This document shows, piece by piece, positions 44,840 to 53,479 of a DNA stretch of 64,000 bases. Each line of letters begins with the position of its first letter. The stretch's first letter is position 1. Below the pieces are notes generated by a model. The model did no database searches, was not told the origin of the DNA, and worked only from the letters and a program-made list of their open reading frames with translations. This DNA comes from Synergistaceae bacterium (GTDB lineage Bacteria > Synergistota > Synergistia > Synergistales > Aminobacteriaceae), in the NCBI GenBank assembly GCA_018436595.1, contig JAHDLC010000007.1:1-64000 (forward strand). Reading direction: 5' to 3'. The translations under genes were made by a program, and so were the position numbers.

Positions 44840-45120
44840 TCTCCACCTCTCCCGAGAAAAGTCTGTGCTTCACGGACCATCTCTTCCAGCTTTCCGGCAT
44901 TCAGCCGGTAATGGATGAAATAGCCCCTCCTTTCCGGCGTTACCAGTTCCGCCTCCCGCAGGATCCTCAGGTGCTGCGAAACGGCTGCGGCTGTCATTTT
45001 CAGGCTGCATGCAAGGGCGTTGACGCACATGGGACGCTCCCTGAGAAGATTCAGTATCCGGAGCCGCGTATCCACGGAAAGAATCTTGAACATTCCGGCC
45101 AGGCTTTCTGGACTGGTCAT
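44836..45120 (-). CDS. ArsR-family winged-helix regulator
   Basis: This 94-residue protein is an ArsR-type winged-helix repressor (RLRILNLLRERPMCVNALAC, then TAAAVSQHLRILREAELV and the RRGYFIHYRL wing). No CxC or other metal-site Cys pattern of ArsR/SmtB is seen (Cys only in the MCVNALAC region), so a non-metal signal is likely. It heads the ABC operon, and a perfect 8-4-8 palindrome overlaps the promoter 17 bases upstream of its start. Autorepression is the simplest reading. Confidence 0.88.
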   Translation of the reverse strand: MTSPESLAGMFKILSVDTRLRILNLLRERPMCVNALACSLKMTAAAVSQHLRILREAELVTPERRGYFIHYRLNAGKLEEMVREAQTFLGRGGE

Positions 45121-45136
45121 GGCATCTCCTTTGATT

Positions 45137-45156
45137 AAGTATTTGCTAAAATACTT
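45137..45156. promoter_or_regulatory. Perfect 20-bp palindrome, candidate ArsR operator
   Basis: AAGTATTT (45137-45144), GCTA and AAATACTT (45149-45156) form a perfect inverted repeat overlapping the -10 box of the arsR promoter. Confidence 0.75.
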
Positions 45157-45181
45157 TATTCCTTTACCGGTGAAGGGTCAA
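45153..45181 (-). promoter_or_regulatory. arsR-ABC operon promoter
   Basis: On the minus strand TTGACC (45181-45176), a 17-base spacer and TAAAGT (45158-45153). The -10 box lies inside the palindrome, so a bound repressor would block polymerase. Confidence 0.6.
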
Positions 45182-45268
45182 GAGGGCATGAGGTGGAATC
45201 AGGACGAAAATTCCGGGTGTGGTTCAGAAAAACGCCCGAAAAGGGGATATATGAAGGAATGCCTGAAA

Positions 45269-45297
45269 TTGCCGAAATATAAAACTAATACTACAAT
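45269..45297 (+). promoter_or_regulatory. Promoter of the secreted HExxH protein gene
   Basis: TTGCCG (45269-45274) and TACAAT (45292-45297) are spaced by 17 bases, about 40 bases before the start codon. Confidence 0.55.
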
Positions 45298-45340
45298 AAT
45301 GCGTGCAGGAAGACAGCACGAAGAGCTGGGAGGGATGGGG

Positions 45341-47746
45341 ATGCCTGATAAGGCCAAAAGGTCAGCGTTAGTCCTTGTATGGGCGGCACTATTGGTTTTC
45401 TGCCCGGGGGGGCTGTCCGCGAACGGGCAGGAGGTCTCGGTGACGTACACCTTCCCCCTGGAGGGAGATCGGCTTGTGCGGCTGGATTTTCCGGTCATAG
45501 TGGAGTTTACGGGACCTGCAGATCCGGAAGGCTTTTCCTTCGCCCTTTTCCCCGATCCCGGCGGATGGCAGGAGAAGTGGGAAAACGGAAACCGAAGGGT
45601 GAAGCTGATACCCTCGGCGGGTTTCGCCAGGGGAACACGGTACGAAGCGAGGATAAAGTCAGTGAAGGAGGCTAAGGAGCATGTTTTTTCCTTCTTCGTG
45701 TCCGGGCCTGATTCCGTTGCCCTTATCGATGAAGCGGAGGAAAAAAAGATCCTGACCCGCGACGGGGCGTGGATCTATCGGATGGAAGCTCTTTTTGAAC
45801 CTGAGAAACTTCCGGAAGCCTATCAAAGTTCGACGCCCATACGGTGCGGAACTCCTGTTTTCAACAGGTTTTCAAGGGATGCCGGATCATTGGGGAAGGA
45901 TACCCTGGAACGGCTGAGCCCGTATCTTGTCCGGCCCGGTGAACCGGGGAGCGTGTTCGAAGGCGACGGAGAGGATGCAGAAGCCGGCCGGAGTTTTTCA
46001 GCCGGTCCGGCGGAGGCCGCAGACCGTCCCTCCGGATATAGCTATTCGGCCAAATGCACCAGGGCACCTGTCACAGTGTGGTCCGGACCCAAAAATGCGG
46101 TGAAGGCACGAAGGGTAAGGGACCTGGTGGATTCTCACGATATGTACGGTAAGTTTCTGGACCTGATGGGGAAAAGGCCGCCCGATGATAACGGGGAGGC
46201 CGGAAACAGCACGAATCCTGACGGCAGGCTGGACATTTTTCTGGTCCGCATGGATTCGTCGGCCGGCAGCGTCTGCGGGTTCTGCCGGGCCACGACCCCG
46301 GGAAAGAAGGTCTCGCCGTCAGTGATTCTGATCAACAATACGCTGGAAGGGGATCTTCTTGCTTCGACCCTGGCCCATGAGCTTTTCCACGCATTCCAGA
46401 ACGCGCATTCCGTCTTTGAGGAGAAATGGCTGTCAGAGGGAACGGCAGTCTGGGCCGAGGACTTCATCGGAAAGGGATGGAATTTTGAGCAGGAATATTT
46501 GCCCGCCCTTTTTGCCCGGGACAGCAACCGGATGGAAACGCTCACTGGTTCTGACGGGGACGCACTGTACGGGGCGTATCTTTTCCCCTTCTTTCTCACG
46601 AAGCATGCCTTCAGGTCCCGGGGGAGCGGTTCGGACAAAGTAGTGGGGGAAATATGGAAGGCTGCAGGAGCGGACGGCGATTTCCAGTCTCTCGGGTCGG
46701 TGAACCATGCCCTGGAGGGGAAGTTTGACGAGTACTTCCGGAAATTTGCCCTTGTGACCATGGACCTGCCTCCCTTCGACGAGATTTACCCGAAGAGCGA
46801 AAATCTGGAAATCCGTCCCCTTCACCGGGAGGAGTTTTGGCTGCTCTACGAGCCGGGGGAACAGACCGTGGAAATACCCCTTCCGCCCCTGTCGGCGAAA
46901 TACGTGCGAATCGACAACGATCTTTTTGACCCTGCCTTTGTTCGCCTCGACCTCTCCGATTTTCTGAAGAACCCTGAAACTCTCTCGGTGCAGGCCGTGA
47001 TCGACGACGGGGAACAACTGCCTCCTCTTGACCTGACGGGGAAAGAAAAGATGGAGTTCGAGGTGAACCGCGAAGAGAAGAGCCCTCTCGACTTCAAAAA
47101 AATGATCCTGGTCTTTGCCTCGACGGACCGGAAGTCCATCACATTCAACACTCTGAAGATCCAGGTCAGGGGGGCAAAATTTTCCGGAACTGTTTTTTAC
47201 CGGAAAAATCATCCATGGTCCGTTGAGAATTCCAATGCGACCGGAACAGTCACCTCCACCGGCACACTGACGGAGAACGCCGTACTGCACATCACGCTCA
47301 AGTATTCCAATACCTACCAGGGAAGGGATTACTACAAGCCGGAGAACGCGTCCGGGACATACTCCTATTCATACAGGGAACATTGCGAGATCAGGGTCCA
47401 CGATCAGCCGGGAGTCGGGACCATCGACAGGACGGCTCATGATTCCGGGGCGCTGAAGCGGGAAAGAATACATTGCCTGCTGATCCATGATCCCGAAAAG
47501 GGAACGTACTCCTTTGATTTCAGCATCTCCACACCCGTGAAGGAGTCCGGGACTGAAATATGGCAGGGCGGTGTTTTAACGGTGCCTCTCAGCTGGGCGA
47601 TACAGTTGGATGAGCGGAAATTCGAGGGACAAACGGACGGCAGTGTTTTTTCCGGTTCCTGGTCAGTGCCGGGGAAAAACTTTGCACCGGGGGTGCCTGG
47701 CGGCCACTCAGGCGCCACTGCGAGCTGGACTTTCGTGAAACCCTGA
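45341..47746 (+). CDS. Large secreted protein with HExxH metallopeptidase motif
   Basis: The 801-residue protein starts with a signal peptide (ALVLVWAALLVFCPGGLSA, cleavage near residue 26). Residues 27-110 resemble a bacterial Ig-like domain. The middle holds HELFH (346-350) and a downstream Glu366 in WLSEGTAVWAEDF, the zinc-site spacing of gluzincin-type peptidases. The last 350 residues are beta-rich and unassigned. ATG 45341 has GGGAGGG seven bases upstream. It is monocistronic. Peptidase activity is inferred from the motif; I do not recognise the family, and no cell-wall anchor is visible. Confidence 0.75.
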   Translation: MPDKAKRSALVLVWAALLVFCPGGLSANGQEVSVTYTFPLEGDRLVRLDFPVIVEFTGPADPEGFSFALFPDPGGWQEKWENGNRRVKLIPSAGFARGTRYEARIKSVKEAKEHVFSFFVSGPDSVALIDEAEEKKILTRDGAWIYRMEALFEPEKLPEAYQSSTPIRCGTPVFNRFSRDAGSLGKDTLERLSPYLVRPGEPGSVFEGDGEDAEAGRSFSAGPAEAADRPSGYSYSAKCTRAPVTVWSGPKNAVKARRVRDLVDSHDMYGKFLDLMGKRPPDDNGEAGNSTNPDGRLDIFLVRMDSSAGSVCGFCRATTPGKKVSPSVILINNTLEGDLLASTLAHELFHAFQNAHSVFEEKWLSEGTAVWAEDFIGKGWNFEQEYLPALFARDSNRMETLTGSDGDALYGAYLFPFFLTKHAFRSRGSGSDKVVGEIWKAAGADGDFQSLGSVNHALEGKFDEYFRKFALVTMDLPPFDEIYPKSENLEIRPLHREEFWLLYEPGEQTVEIPLPPLSAKYVRIDNDLFDPAFVRLDLSDFLKNPETLSVQAVIDDGEQLPPLDLTGKEKMEFEVNREEKSPLDFKKMILVFASTDRKSITFNTLKIQVRGAKFSGTVFYRKNHPWSVENSNATGTVTSTGTLTENAVLHITLKYSNTYQGRDYYKPENASGTYSYSYREHCEIRVHDQPGVGTIDRTAHDSGALKRERIHCLLIHDPEKGTYSFDFSISTPVKESGTEIWQGGVLTVPLSWAIQLDERKFEGQTDGSVFSGSWSVPGKNFAPGVPGGHSGATASWTFVKP

Positions 47747-47843: not shown

Positions 47844-49583
47844 TCAGGATTTCAGCCCGGCATACTCCCGGTACAGCCGGAGCCGCTCCTCCAGGGAGTC
47901 CCGGTCCATGAGCCCGGTGGCTGTCTGGACGGAGTACATTTTTTCCGGTATCTTCACCGACCCGTGGTCAAAGCCGCAGAGGGCCTTCCATTCGTATTTC
48001 CGGAGCAGGGCCTTTTCCGACATGGTCTGCAGCTTTTCCGCGTCCCACTCCAGGCCGAGAGCGTCCAGGCCCCGGAGGATCACCTCTTCATCGTAGACGC
48101 CCCTGGCGAAAAGGCAGATCATGAGGGAGTTGAGCACCATGCGCCATTGTGCTTCCTTCACCTGGGCCCGAACCTGGTCTTCGAGAGGCTGGGCGGCGTT
48201 CAGGAGTTTCTGGTCGATGGAGTAGCCCGTATCGTCCAGGTGGGAGTGGCGCACCCCCATCATGCAGGTGACGGCGAAGTTCTCCCCGGTCATGTATCCG
48301 CCGGGCTCCGCGCCGCCGTACTGGACTGCCCATTCCTCCCCGCCGTACTTCCCGGAGCAGAAGGCACACCCCTTCTCCAGGTCCCTGTAGAATTCTCCCT
48401 GTCCTTTGGCCGTGCGTTCGAGCACCTCGAGGTAGGCCGCACCGTCTCCGAAGGAAAGAGAGAGCCCTCCCGTTTCTTCGAGAGAAAGATTTCCCCGGAG
48501 GAAGGATTCCGTGGCCCACGCAAGGGTGCACCCGAGGGAAATGACGTCCCATCCCTGTTTTTCCGTGGCCAGGAGAAGTTTCAGAATGTCCTCCGGGGAC
48601 GAGAGGCTGAGCATGCTTCCCATGGCGTAGATCAGCTCGTAGTCGTAGGAGACCCTGTTCGTGCTGTAATGGTAGGGAGCGAATTCCTCCCGCAGTTCGG
48701 CGAGGTGGATGCAGCCGCACTGGCAGTGGGCGCAGGCCGTGTGCTGCACCAGGAATTTTTCGGCGAACCGTTCCCCGGAGATGGCGTCGGCCCCCTCGAA
48801 GTTGCCCTGGGAGAAGTTCCGGGTGGGGAGGCCCCGTATCATGGAGAGGGGCTTCACGTTGGCCGCGGTGCCCAGGTCGTGGTACTTTTTCATTTCCTTC
48901 GACCGGACGACACGGTCGTAAAGAACGTCATAGACTGCCTTGAATTCCTTCGGATTTGCCAGGGGCAGGGTTTTCGTCCCGCTGACGACGATGGCCTTGA
49001 GGTTTTTGCTCCCCAGGACGGCTCCGAGTCCCAGGCGGCCGAAATGGCGGGAACCGTCCACCGTGGCGCAGGCCATGGGGGAGAGCCGCTCCCCTGCGGG
49101 GCCGATGCGGACCACGGAAATCTTCCGTCCCGTTTTGCTCTCCGCCTCCCGCAGAATCCGGTCGGTGGCCGTGGCCGACTGCCCCCAAAAGGTCGAGGCC
49201 GATTTGACGGCGACGGTGTCGTTTTCGATGGCCAGGTAGGAGGGGCGGTCCGCCCTGCCGGTGATAACGAGGGCGTCGATGCCCGCCTCCCGGAGAGACA
49301 TGGCCAGCCGTCCTCCGGCGTGGGATTCCCCGAGCTCCCCTGTGAGAGGGGATTTGAAGAGAGCCGCTGTTTTCGTCGCGACTGGAAAGAGGGCGCTGAA
49401 GGGGCCAATGGCGAAGATCACAGGGCTTTCCGGGGCCAAGGGATCTCCCTTCGGGTCGCCGTGGCGGAAAAGGAGTTCCGTGGCGGCCGCCGATCCGCCG
49501 AGCCATTCTGAGAACGCCGGTCCGTCATCGAGTATCCGGCCTGTCCCGGAGCCCAGGTCGACGTGCAGGGTTCTTCCCGTCAT
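47844..49583 (-). CDS. Aldehyde ferredoxin oxidoreductase family protein (tungsten type)
   Basis: This 579-residue protein is of the AOR family, which uses a tungsten or molybdenum bis-pterin and one [4Fe-4S] cluster to oxidise aldehydes or reduce acids with ferredoxin. The pterin-binding glycine-rich start, RIGPAGERLSPMA (about residues 160-172) and LGAVLGSKNLKAIVV are clear. The cluster Cys are in CAHCQCGC (about 287-294) and CLFARG (about 494). Its start overlaps the ferredoxin gene's stop by four bases. It is distinct from the AOR at 55.9 kb. Confidence 0.9.
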   Translation of the reverse strand: MTGRTLHVDLGSGTGRILDDGPAFSEWLGGSAAATELLFRHGDPKGDPLAPESPVIFAIGPFSALFPVATKTAALFKSPLTGELGESHAGGRLAMSLREAGIDALVITGRADRPSYLAIENDTVAVKSASTFWGQSATATDRILREAESKTGRKISVVRIGPAGERLSPMACATVDGSRHFGRLGLGAVLGSKNLKAIVVSGTKTLPLANPKEFKAVYDVLYDRVVRSKEMKKYHDLGTAANVKPLSMIRGLPTRNFSQGNFEGADAISGERFAEKFLVQHTACAHCQCGCIHLAELREEFAPYHYSTNRVSYDYELIYAMGSMLSLSSPEDILKLLLATEKQGWDVISLGCTLAWATESFLRGNLSLEETGGLSLSFGDGAAYLEVLERTAKGQGEFYRDLEKGCAFCSGKYGGEEWAVQYGGAEPGGYMTGENFAVTCMMGVRHSHLDDTGYSIDQKLLNAAQPLEDQVRAQVKEAQWRMVLNSLMICLFARGVYDEEVILRGLDALGLEWDAEKLQTMSEKALLRKYEWKALCGFDHGSVKIPEKMYSVQTATGLMDRDSLEERLRLYREYAGLKS

Positions 49584-50008
49584 CTCCTATCCTCTCCTTC
49601 CGGTTTTTCGGTCATGGCGAGGACGTCGTTGGGGCAGTATTTCACACACTGGCCGCAGAAGATGCACGGAATGGGCTGCCTCTCCTCCTCGTCCCACTGG
49701 AGGGCGCTGATGGCACAGGCCTTTACGCAGGCGCCGCAGGAGATGCAGAGGTCTTTTTTGAGCCGTACGCCGCCGTTTGGGGCGGGGGTCAGGGCCCCCG
49801 TCGGGCAGGCCTTTGCACAGTCTGGATCCTCGCAGCGGGCGCAGACCCTGATGGAGAAGGCCCCCTCGACACCGGCGTAGCCCTTGACCCTGAGGGCAGC
49901 CTTGCCGCTGCCTCCGGCATTCCGGACCATCCGGGAGCAGGCGTACATGCAGCTGAAGCAGCCGATGCACTGGTCCCGGTTCACAACGTTCAGATATTGT
50001 ACCGCCAT
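49580..50008 (-). CDS. Ferredoxin-like protein with four [4Fe-4S] clusters
   Basis: The 142-residue electron carrier has sixteen Cys in four CxxCxxC/xxxC sets: CIGCFSCMYAC, CARCEDPDCAKACP, CISCGACVKAC and CIFCGQCVKYCP. It resembles the electron-transfer subunits of HycB/AorA-type complexes and should link the overlapping AOR to ferredoxin or another oxidoreductase. The start at 50008 follows AGAGGTGA; the frame is open upstream without a site. Expression is from a good minus-strand promoter. Confidence 0.9.
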   Translation of the reverse strand: MAVQYLNVVNRDQCIGCFSCMYACSRMVRNAGGSGKAALRVKGYAGVEGAFSIRVCARCEDPDCAKACPTGALTPAPNGGVRLKKDLCISCGACVKACAISALQWDEEERQPIPCIFCGQCVKYCPNDVLAMTEKPEGEDRR

Positions 50009-50071: not shown

Positions 50072-50133
50072 CTGGTACAATAACATCGAGTCGCACGAGA
50101 ACCGGTATAACCGGAAGAGAAGGAGTGAAGGAC

Positions 50134-50460
50134 ATGAAAAGACGGGTGTTTTATACCGCTCTTCTGATGGTGTTCCTCGGGAGCATATCTGCCTGGGGAC
50201 ACCCTGCATGGAAGGGAGACCTGCGAAAAATAACAGAGGCCGGCGGCGTGGTGTATTCTCTCTACGCGGACCGTACAAGGCTGGTGGAAGACTGCGTTCC
50301 CGGGGCGGAGCAGGTGGCGGAGACCTATGTCCACATGGTGATCCCGGGCCAGAACCTGATCGAGATACTGCAATGGAACATTCGGCTCAACGGAAAGGAG
50401 TACCGTGTCCAGGATTCCTTTGACTATGCCCTGGATACCAAGGGACTGGTGGACCAGTGA
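50134..50460 (+). CDS. Small secreted protein ended by an in-frame TGA
   Basis: The 108-residue product has a signal peptide (FYTALLMVFLGSISAWG) and no recognised domain. ATG 50134 has AAGGAG eight bases upstream. The reading frame stops at TGA 50458-50460 but continues for 33 further codons with the composition of real coding sequence (see 50461-50562). It therefore looks like a 142-residue protein cut by a nonsense codon, or one whose TGA is read through. The only Cys in the predicted mature part is in EDCVPG. Function unknown. Confidence 0.65.
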   Translation: MKRRVFYTALLMVFLGSISAWGHPAWKGDLRKITEAGGVVYSLYADRTRLVEDCVPGAEQVAETYVHMVIPGQNLIEILQWNIRLNGKEYRVQDSFDYALDTKGLVDQ

Positions 50461-50562
50461 ACGGTCTTCCCCGAGTGGGCCTCGTGGAGGCCCGTTGAAA
50501 AAGGATCCGTCCAGGAGAAGATCATCGCGGCGGTGTTCGGTATACTGTCTGAAAAGAAATAA
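50461..50562 (+). other. In-frame coding continuation beyond the TGA, with hairpin
   Basis: In the same frame the sequence reads TVFPEWASWRPVEKG and then a helix-like end, closing with TAA at 50560-50562. The third codon positions are mostly G or C, as in genes here. A 7-bp hairpin GGGCCTC-GTG-GAGGCCC (50477-50493) sits 16 bases after the TGA, with no U-run. The distance from TGA to the apical loop is 23 bases, within the range of bacterial selenocysteine elements, though the protein context is not typical for selenocysteine. Confidence 0.55.
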
Positions 50563-50584: not shown

Positions 50585-51154
50585 GTGGAGAAGGAAAAGC
50601 TGTTTTATCGCATGCTTGATGTGATCGAGGGGGATATTGTGCCCCTCACCGCCCGGGGTGTCGCCATAGGCTGCAAGGTTTTCGGCGCGGCGGTGCTCCG
50701 CAGGGACGATCTTTCCCTTGTGGTGGCGGGGACGAATCATGAAGCCTTCTCGCCCCTGTGGCACGGCGAGGTCTATACCATCAAGCTGTTCTACGAGCTC
50801 CAGGGACATCCTGACCCCTCGGAATGTCTTTTCCTCTCAACCCACGAACCCTGTTCCATGTGCATTTCCGCCCTCGCCTGGGCGGGGTTCCGGGACATCT
50901 ACTACTTTTTCGGCTACGAGCAGACCCAGGACGATTTCAACATTCCCCACGACCTGCGGATGCTCCGGGAGGTCTTCGGCTGTGTTTCACCGACGAAAGA
51001 GAATATGTACTACACGAGCCGCTCCCTTCTTGACATAGCCCAGGGGCTCCCGGAGCCTGAAAAGGCGGAGGGAAGGATTGCGAAAATACGGGAGACCTAT
51101 GCGGGGCTTTCCGCGGTGTACCAGGCCGGCGAGAAAAAAATGGTGCTGAAGTAG
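50585..51154 (+). CDS. Zinc-dependent nucleoside/nucleotide deaminase-like protein
   Basis: This 189-residue protein is of the cytidine/guanine deaminase superfamily. Zinc ligands are His60 (HGE, with Glu62 as proton shuttle), Cys90 and Cys93 (PCSMC). It should deaminate a base or nucleoside; the family also includes tRNA adenosine deaminases, but the length and C-terminal part do not match TadA closely. GTG 50585 with AAGGGGA at eight bases is preferred over ATG 50564, which has no site. It follows the interrupted secreted gene closely. Confidence 0.8.
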   Translation: MEKEKLFYRMLDVIEGDIVPLTARGVAIGCKVFGAAVLRRDDLSLVVAGTNHEAFSPLWHGEVYTIKLFYELQGHPDPSECLFLSTHEPCSMCISALAWAGFRDIYYFFGYEQTQDDFNIPHDLRMLREVFGCVSPTKENMYYTSRSLLDIAQGLPEPEKAEGRIAKIRETYAGLSAVYQAGEKKMVLK

Positions 51155-52266: not shown

Positions 52267-52302
52267 CGGAAATGCAAGATGCAACAAAAGAATTGAAGCC
52301 GG

Positions 52303-52338
52303 CGTTCCCGCGAGAATCGCCTTCGCGGGAACGTTTTC
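52303..52338 (+). terminator. Leader hairpin, candidate attenuator
   Basis: An 11-bp stem (52303-52313 with 52323-52333) followed by TTTTCC lies within the predicted leader, 36 bases before the start codon. It could attenuate transcription of the transporter. Confidence 0.5.
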
Positions 52339-52373
52339 CGTGCATCAGGAAATGGAATGAAGGAGGAGTTGTT

Positions 52374-52901
52374 GTGGGAAAGGATCTTTTTGCCCTGTTC
52401 GTGTCCTTTGCGAAGACCGGCTCCGTGGCATACGGCGGGGGGCCGTCCATGGTGCCTCTGCTGAAGGCGGAAGTGATCGAGCGCCGGAACTGGATAGGCA
52501 CGGAGGATTTTATGGATGCCCTGGCCATAGGCAATGCCCTTCCGGGACCCATCATCACGAAAATGTCGGCCGCCATCGGCTACAGGAAGGCCGGTTGGCC
52601 CGGTGCCCTTGTGGCCATTGCGGGCATCATTCTCCCGAGTGCCCTTGCCCTGCTGGTCCTGATGGGGTTTGTCTCCCTTGTGAAGGACAATCCGCTGGTG
52701 ACGAGCATGCTGCGGGGACTTCGCCCCGTGGTGGTGGCCATGCTTGCCTACGCGGCCTGGGATATGGCTCCGAACGCTCTGAAGAACCGGACCACCTGGG
52801 TCATCTGCGGGGTGTCCCTGGCGCTGATGGTTTTCTCCCCCATTCACCCGGCCCTGATCATCGTTGCCGGGGCCGTGGCGGGCATTGCCCTTAAACTCTA
52901 G
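52374..52901 (+). CDS. chrA: Chromate transporter-family protein, first half
   Basis: This 175-residue membrane protein is a single-domain CHR (chromate transporter) protein with FAKTGSVAYGGGPSMVPLL (about residues 11-29) and the ALGNALPGP-type motif as AIGNALPGPIITK (about 50-62). Short CHR proteins occur as pairs of antiparallel halves that together equal one ChrA. GTG 52374 has AGGAGG seven bases upstream. The substrate may be chromate or another oxyanion. The second half follows 53 bases downstream. Confidence 0.87.
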   Translation: MGKDLFALFVSFAKTGSVAYGGGPSMVPLLKAEVIERRNWIGTEDFMDALAIGNALPGPIITKMSAAIGYRKAGWPGALVAIAGIILPSALALLVLMGFVSLVKDNPLVTSMLRGLRPVVVAMLAYAAWDMAPNALKNRTTWVICGVSLALMVFSPIHPALIIVAGAVAGIALKL

Positions 52902-52954
52902 GAGGCGGGCGATGATGGGGTGCCGCATACAGGAAGCGAAGAGGAGAGGATGAC

Positions 52955-53479
52955 ATGAGCACGGTCCTGGCATTGTTCTGGTCTTTTCTGAAAATAGGGT
53001 GCGTGGGATACGGCGGCGGGCCGTCCATGGTTCCCCTCATCAAGGAGGAAGTGGTGAACATCCAGCAGTGGATGTCCGTCACCGATTTCGTGGATATGCT
53101 CGCCATCGGGAACGCCCTTCCGGGACCCATAGCGACGAAACTGTCCGTAGTGATCGGGTTCGACGTGGCCGGTCCGCTGGGGTCGATCGCAGCTTTGGCC
53201 GGGACGGTGCTGCCGAGCGTCGTCGTCCTGATCCTGCTCCTGCGGTTTGTTGCCATGATCAGCGGCAACCCGAAGGTCACGAGCATGCTGAAGGGGCTCC
53301 GTCCAGTGGTGGTGGCCCTGCTCGCCTATGCCGCCTATGACATGTCCTTCGGCTCCCTGACAGGACCCCTCACCTGGGCCATAGGGGGTGTGACCCTGCT
53401 CCTGATGATTTTCACGAAGATTCATCCCGCCCTGTTCGTGGTGGCGGGCGCAGTGGCGGGGGCGCTGCTCGGGCTGTAG
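52955..53479 (+). CDS. chrA: Chromate transporter-family protein, second half
   Basis: The 174-residue partner shows the same signatures, FLKIGCVGYGGGPSMVPLI and AIGNALPGPIATK, with similarity over the whole length to the gene upstream, so the pair arose by duplication. The two probably form a heterodimer equal to a long ChrA. ATG 52955 has GGAGAGGATGAC upstream. The gene is followed by a bidirectional terminator. Confidence 0.87.
   Translation: MSTVLALFWSFLKIGCVGYGGGPSMVPLIKEEVVNIQQWMSVTDFVDMLAIGNALPGPIATKLSVVIGFDVAGPLGSIAALAGTVLPSVVVLILLLRFVAMISGNPKVTSMLKGLRPVVVALLAYAAYDMSFGSLTGPLTWAIGGVTLLLMIFTKIHPALFVVAGAVAGALLGL

Follow-up and report, generated by a model that had tools for sequence, protein, structure and literature searches.

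The locus examined here raises the question of whether a TGA codon inside a small gene is a lesion, a true stop, or a codon that is translated. The gene lies in a stretch of DNA of 64,000 nucleotides, referred to below as the window. Its open reading frame starts with ATG at 50134, continues for 108 codons to TGA at 50458-50460, and then for 33 further codons to TAA at 50560-50562; re-reading of the sequence found the TGA, the further codons, and the TAA as the initial annotation had described them. It should be noted that a long frame and a hairpin are, without homologues, little evidence. In five of the eight genes examined in the stretch, the present gene included, the stop is succeeded by an open frame of 33-84 codons. 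The features of the locus are as follows:

50120..50125, plus strand: AAGGAG, 8 nt ahead of ATG 50134, a probable ribosome binding site (read from the sequence)
50134..50562, plus strand: selenoprotein candidate gene; frame, TGA, and C-terminal peptide kept in 12 of the 12 genes covering the site
50458..50460, plus strand: in-frame TGA, probable selenocysteine (Sec) codon; TGA in all 12 homologous genes covering the site
50461..50559, plus strand: the 33 codons after the TGA, conserved C-terminal part, with dN/dS of 0.11-0.45 in six pairs indicating purifying selection
50477..50493, plus strand: hairpin GGGCCTC-GTG-GAGGCCC, probable bacterial SECIS; compensatory changes in three of seven pairs, fits the bacterial SECIS (bSECIS) model

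The predicted product has 142 residues with Sec at position 109, and its N-terminus, judged by eye, resembles a signal peptide. On the comparative evidence given below, we regard it as highly likely that this product is a small selenoprotein that is exported.

When the upstream 108 residues were compared with 40 relatives, five genomes were matched, that of the window among them. Each of the five has TGA as the next codon, after which the same frame reads xxxPEWASWRP. Profile searches of 185 genomes of the phylum, in which stops were read through, identified 12 carriers at E <= 0.001, and a wider profile added one more (G032), giving a total of 13. Seven of the 20 genomes matched by the wider profile, with E of 0.1-0.9, were not counted as carriers; one match from this set, L044, inspected along with L046, is a protein of the PF16747 type. 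Twelve of the 13 carriers cover the site, and all 12 have TGA at the same codon, preceded by VDQ or, in one gene, by VDL; the copy in the 13th carrier, G020, starts at a contig edge immediately beyond the site. Neither Trp, Cys, TAA, nor TAG occurs at the site in any of these 12 genes. They span four families and eight genera: three belong to the genus of the window, five to the same family (G016, G009, G060, G062, and G063), and the remaining four (G047, G039, G030, and G032) to three other families, with 18-87% identity to the window protein. Homologues that end naturally at the TGA, which the initial annotation had named as a refutation, were not encountered: in all 12 genes the frame continues for 29-36 codons with the conserved peptide and ends with TAA, TAG, or TGA. 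Because the TGA and a related continuation are kept throughout, the observation is above chance, and the TGA base is not a sequencing error of the assembly.

Two genomes of the window's genus, G003 and G004, gave no match, and their assemblies are fragmented (490 and 410 contigs, respectively). In the copy in G030 (L031:1471-1950, minus strand), the leader region contains a further in-frame TGA and lacks an in-frame ATG; this copy may be decaying or carry an assembly error, and its broken hairpin agrees with decay. Two contig scans outside the phylum, one with near-exact upstream-half peptides and one with the site back-translated as Cys, found no relatives, TGA-containing members being hardly detectable by such scans; the latter scan found no Cys-form relative either. 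No relatives were found on plasmids, and no pattern match was found in viral contigs.

We calculated dN/dS for the continuation in six close pairs of genes and obtained values of 0.11, 0.17, 0.19, 0.28, 0.36, and 0.45; for the last 90 codons before the TGA, the same pairs gave 0.04-0.15. Seven other genes of the stretch that are shared with relatives served as controls, and their post-stop frames are not kept from one genus to another. Within the genus there is a single similar case, behind the ferredoxin gene, and it overlaps the start of the neighboring gene, as read from the coordinates. Judging from these substitution ratios, the continuation after the TGA evolves as protein.

The hairpin has a stem of 7 bp, extendable to 10 bp (50474-50496), and its GTG loop starts 23 nt after the TGA. 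The bSECIS model, as given in the accessible part of PMC13188914, is defined by a loop of 3-9 nt with a G in the first two positions, an upper stem of 4-16 bp, a distance of 16-37 nt from the UGA to the loop, and a minimum free energy (MFE) <= -7.5 kcal/mol. With its GTG loop, stem of 7-10 bp, distance of 23 nt, and -12.6 kcal/mol, the window hairpin fits this model, and it lies at 50477-50493 as the initial annotation had described. Simple bSECIS-like hairpins follow 122 of the 1834 TGA triplets on both strands of the window (6.7%), and hairpins at -13 kcal/mol or better, compared with -12.6 for the candidate, follow 16 of the 1834 (0.9%).

In an ungapped alignment of the 12 genes, 76 of the 84 pair cells of the hairpin are standard pairs, three of the seven pairs are changed in both partners, and the covariation score was reached by none of 500 shuffles, figures that sequence relatedness can inflate. 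Every pairing measure falls when the partners are slid by 1-3 columns. The clearest case is G039 (GGGTTTC-GTG-GAAACCC), in which two amino acids are changed and all seven pairs are kept. Throughout the window's family, represented by eight genomes, Ala, Ser, and Arg in the stem each keep a single codon, while Pro+4, Glu+5, Val-3, and Asp-2 use 2-3 codons; Gln-1 is fixed as well. As far as can be judged from pairing and codon use, the hairpin is under a constraint of its own. The strict, contiguous-stem version of the bSECIS model fits nine of the 12 genes and fails for G047, G030, and G032. In G047 and G032 there are mismatches or larger loops, yet the stem folds at the hairpin position (-17.5 and -8.8 kcal/mol, respectively, for 53-nt segments, neither better than shuffles). 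This strict version is not sensitive, because GrdA of the window genome, a member of a catalogued selenoprotein family, fails it as well. Fold z-scores against shuffles ranged from -3.3 to +0.9 in the nine genes folded, with -2.9 for the window, and an Rfam search with the hairpin gave two chance-level matches only. Since most non-Sec relatives share the invariant Trp of the hairpin, the SECIS was probably fitted around this residue.

The window genome presumably belongs to the Synergistetes. This group is called selenoprotein-rich in the accessible part of PMC5029168. In the window genome, the Sec genes that the initial annotation had pointed to as a check are all present: selA, an adjacent selB, tRNA-Sec (anticodon TCA), and selD. 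The selB product beside selA contains SelB-wing_3 and SelB beta-barrel domains, and the SelB winged-helix Pfam model PF09106 has no match in this genome. Two established selenoproteins of the window genome, GrdA and SelD, also have an in-frame TGA. A SelA match was found in 13 of the 13 carriers (two of them fragments at contig edges) versus 123 of the 172 other genomes, an association with a Fisher p of 0.016 when relatedness is ignored. Divergent from selA-selB, a gene at L015:8873-9466 encodes a TusA-DsrE fusion protein, according to domain matches, which presumably resembles the YedF-type selenium proteins.

The candidate gene is flanked by the following genes:

50585..51154, plus strand (also opens at ATG 50564): deaminase-fold protein, downstream neighbor (Pfam dCMP_cyt_deam_1, E 3.6e-9)
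49580..50008, minus strand: 4Fe-4S ferredoxin-like protein, divergent neighbor (domain match)
47844..49583, minus strand: aldehyde ferredoxin oxidoreductase family protein, divergent (Pfam AFOR_N, E 3e-63; AFOR_C, E 6.6e-53)

Near the selenoprotein gene, the deaminase was found in seven of 12 carriers, the ferredoxin in seven, and a high-identity gene of the aldehyde ferredoxin oxidoreductase family in six, with some of the stretches ending at contig edges. No deaminase gene was found nearby in G016, G047, G039, G030, or G032, and in the last four, some stretches again ending at contig edges, none of the three genes was found. Because the distant carriers lack these genes, a functional link to the oxidoreductase/ferredoxin pair or to the deaminase was not adopted. 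Several other observations were made in these neighborhoods. The oxidoreductase gene overlaps the ferredoxin gene (window 47844-50008, minus strand). A large protein encoded at window 45020-47746 has an HELFH stretch and, by eye, looks like an exported metallopeptidase, and window 52272-53479 holds a tandem pair of paralogous genes for membrane proteins (58% identity), which we take to resemble split chromate-transporter halves. In G047, the gene adjoining the family member (L061:2199-5789) is a gyrB that carries an intein; its 1197 codons include both intein-splicing and LAGLIDADG domains.

Several explanations of these data have to be weighed. The reading preferred in the initial annotation was a nonsense mutation (TGG to TGA), and a mutation or a sequencing error would leave a pseudogene with a single in-frame TGA; taken alone, the window copy has such a look, and the G030 copy does look damaged. 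However, the same TGA is present in all 12 genes, which come from independent assemblies, a Trp codon is found at the site in none of them, and protein-level constraint persists after the TGA. For the window copy, a nonsense mutation or a sequencing error is refuted by these homologues, and the probability left to a pseudogene is close to nil; the TGA at 50458-50460 is, as far as the comparison of genes can tell, real, and the gene is very probably intact. It is also very improbable that the protein ends naturally at the TGA and that the conserved DNA beyond is a regulatory hairpin or a leader for the deaminase gene. The deaminase gene is close behind and the hairpin is conserved, but the same frame is kept in all 12 genes and is constrained as protein beyond the hairpin, the stretch is present in the five genomes in which no deaminase was found near it, and it can be aligned to the C-terminal end of non-Sec relatives that are intact. 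Accordingly, both a natural end at the TGA and a separate downstream element were rejected on gene context, constraint, and C-terminal alignment.

Another explanation is selenium-independent programmed read-through, in which the UGA would mostly be a true stop and a minor share of events would insert Trp or another residue, producing an extended form. A conserved stop within a conserved frame is also the expected trace of this process, and a hairpin could stimulate it. We nevertheless consider it improbable: the stop is TGA in all 12 genes and never TAA or TAG, and the next base varies (A, T, G, and C); the genome is fully equipped for Sec insertion, and the hairpin agrees with the bacterial SECIS model; and the extension is not an optional add-on but forms the domain's conserved terminus, matching the C-terminus of the intact non-Sec relatives in alignment. 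Selenocysteine insertion, which the initial annotation had listed as an alternative, is, in turn, strongly supported by the invariant TGA, the covarying hairpin, the presence of the Sec genes, and the TGA codons of GrdA and SelD.

Under selenocysteine insertion, SelB with Sec-tRNA(UCA) would decode the UGA at 50458-50460, guided by the hairpin with its loop 23 nt downstream, and the ribosome would then proceed to the TAA at 50560-50562, yielding the 142-residue product with Sec109 in the context ...LVDQ-U-xxxPEWASWRP....

The relationship of this protein to known families is remote. Among 11 members, there was no Pfam match below E 0.15 and no NCBIfam match below E 0.09, and in a direct Pfam scan PF16747 (Adhesin_E) was matched by none of the 11 at E up to 5. 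The best E among PDB sequences, 0.26, was ignored, and a single-sequence AlphaFold model had a pLDDT of 45.5, too low for use. A search of the phylum with PF16747 gave nine matches in eight genomes. Six PF16747 matches and one weak match of the wider profile were combined into an alignment of seven non-Sec proteins, all of which match PF16747 at E up to 0.1; L053 and L059, which are other, longer proteins, and L057, a fragment with stops, were left out. Comparison of the selenoprotein profile with this alignment by hhalign gave a probability of 97.3 and an E of 2.7e-11 over 107 columns with 14% identity. A joint Sec/non-Sec profile recovered both groups in 46 of the 185 genomes at E <= 0.05; its 62 rows, minus the 12 Sec genes and the cut G020, leave 49 non-Sec rows. 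From these profile comparisons, we infer a remote relationship between the selenoprotein family and the adhesin-E (PF16747) fold. Members of PF16747 are like the selenoproteins in length, leader, and the 107 alignable columns, including the (Y...G...)W-P-GS-E end; they differ in having assorted residues or a gap at the Sec column, and the selenoproteins have no direct Pfam match.

The Sec column was examined in 19 distinct non-Sec genes (19 of the 25 with E <= 7.3e-14) and was found to hold His, Tyr, Phe, Arg, Glu, Gln, Asp, or a gap; Cys occurs in this column in none of the 12 family genes and none of the 19 non-Sec relatives. The 19 consist of the seven proteins of the PF16747 alignment and 12 more, L080 and L051 being one gene. 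The accessible part of PMC13188914 states that nearly all selenoproteins have Cys homologues. In the present family, Sec was seemingly gained at a non-Cys position and not via the usual Cys-to-Sec change, because the 19 relatives, aligned at low identity, are without Cys.

The 12-gene family has no invariant Cys, and neither UxxC, CxxU, or a similar motif nor a match to a catalogued family model was found in it. The exported protein would thus use a Sec to which no invariant Cys is paired; this Sec may work by itself or together with an external reductant, or it may bind a metal or a soft ligand. After export, redox chemistry outside the cytoplasm, or metal/soft-ligand binding there, would be most likely. 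A Sec-Gln-Trp site, presumably of the glutathione-peroxidase type, was considered and is not claimed. In G032, an MsrA gene (L064:4729-5436) immediately precedes the family member; this MsrA gene has a leader-like N-terminus and an in-frame TGA that falls at GUFW, which we take to correspond to the GCFW/GUFW site of MsrA, and its product is probably an exported Sec-MsrA. Sec-MsrA is among the selenoprotein families in the accessible parts of the catalogues (PMC9312934; PMC13188914). The apparent leader and the in-frame UGA are shared by this protein and the candidate, whereas fold and motif differ. This adjacency, found in one of 12 carriers, favors an exported redox-repair role. A peroxide- or sulfoxide-related redox role would be a tentative guess, and we are evenly divided on the fuller proposal that Sec arose without a Cys ancestor in an adhesin-E-like domain that is exported and for which Sec has not been reported, possibly with lone-Sec chemistry linked to exported methionine-sulfoxide repair.

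The in-frame UGA, the full Sec machinery, and the hairpin at the model distance are common to the candidate and bSECIS selenoproteins such as GrdA; the candidate differs in lacking a motif of the UxxC/CxxU type and a Cys counterpart and in its absence from the catalogues compared. Those catalogues contain 87 (PMC9312934) and 119 (PMC13188914) selenoprotein families, as given in their accessible parts. No adhesin-E-like or VDQU family was found, by name and motif, in the accessible parts of PMC9312934, PMC13188914, PMC12013277, PMC5029168, and PMC5330540, and title searches that combined adhesins with selenocysteine, or that were directed at families lacking Cys homologues, yielded nothing relevant, most subscription journals being outside the scope of both comparisons. 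Thus, as far as these sources extend, the candidate matches none of the 119 catalogued families by name or motif, nor does it match an NCBIfam or Pfam model, and the earlier remark that its residue context is not a known selenoprotein motif holds against these lists.

Gene finders would truncate the candidate at the TGA, and the most conserved end of the protein would be lost. The family would extend the selenoprotein catalogue as an unusual case without Cys homologues, and a Sec-only family bears on the origin of Sec sites. Published bacterial search methods lean on the pairing of Cys with Sec and might overlook the family; since methods that need Cys counterparts cannot see such a case, further families with Sec only may exist. 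The candidate is a testable Sec protein, predicted to be exported.
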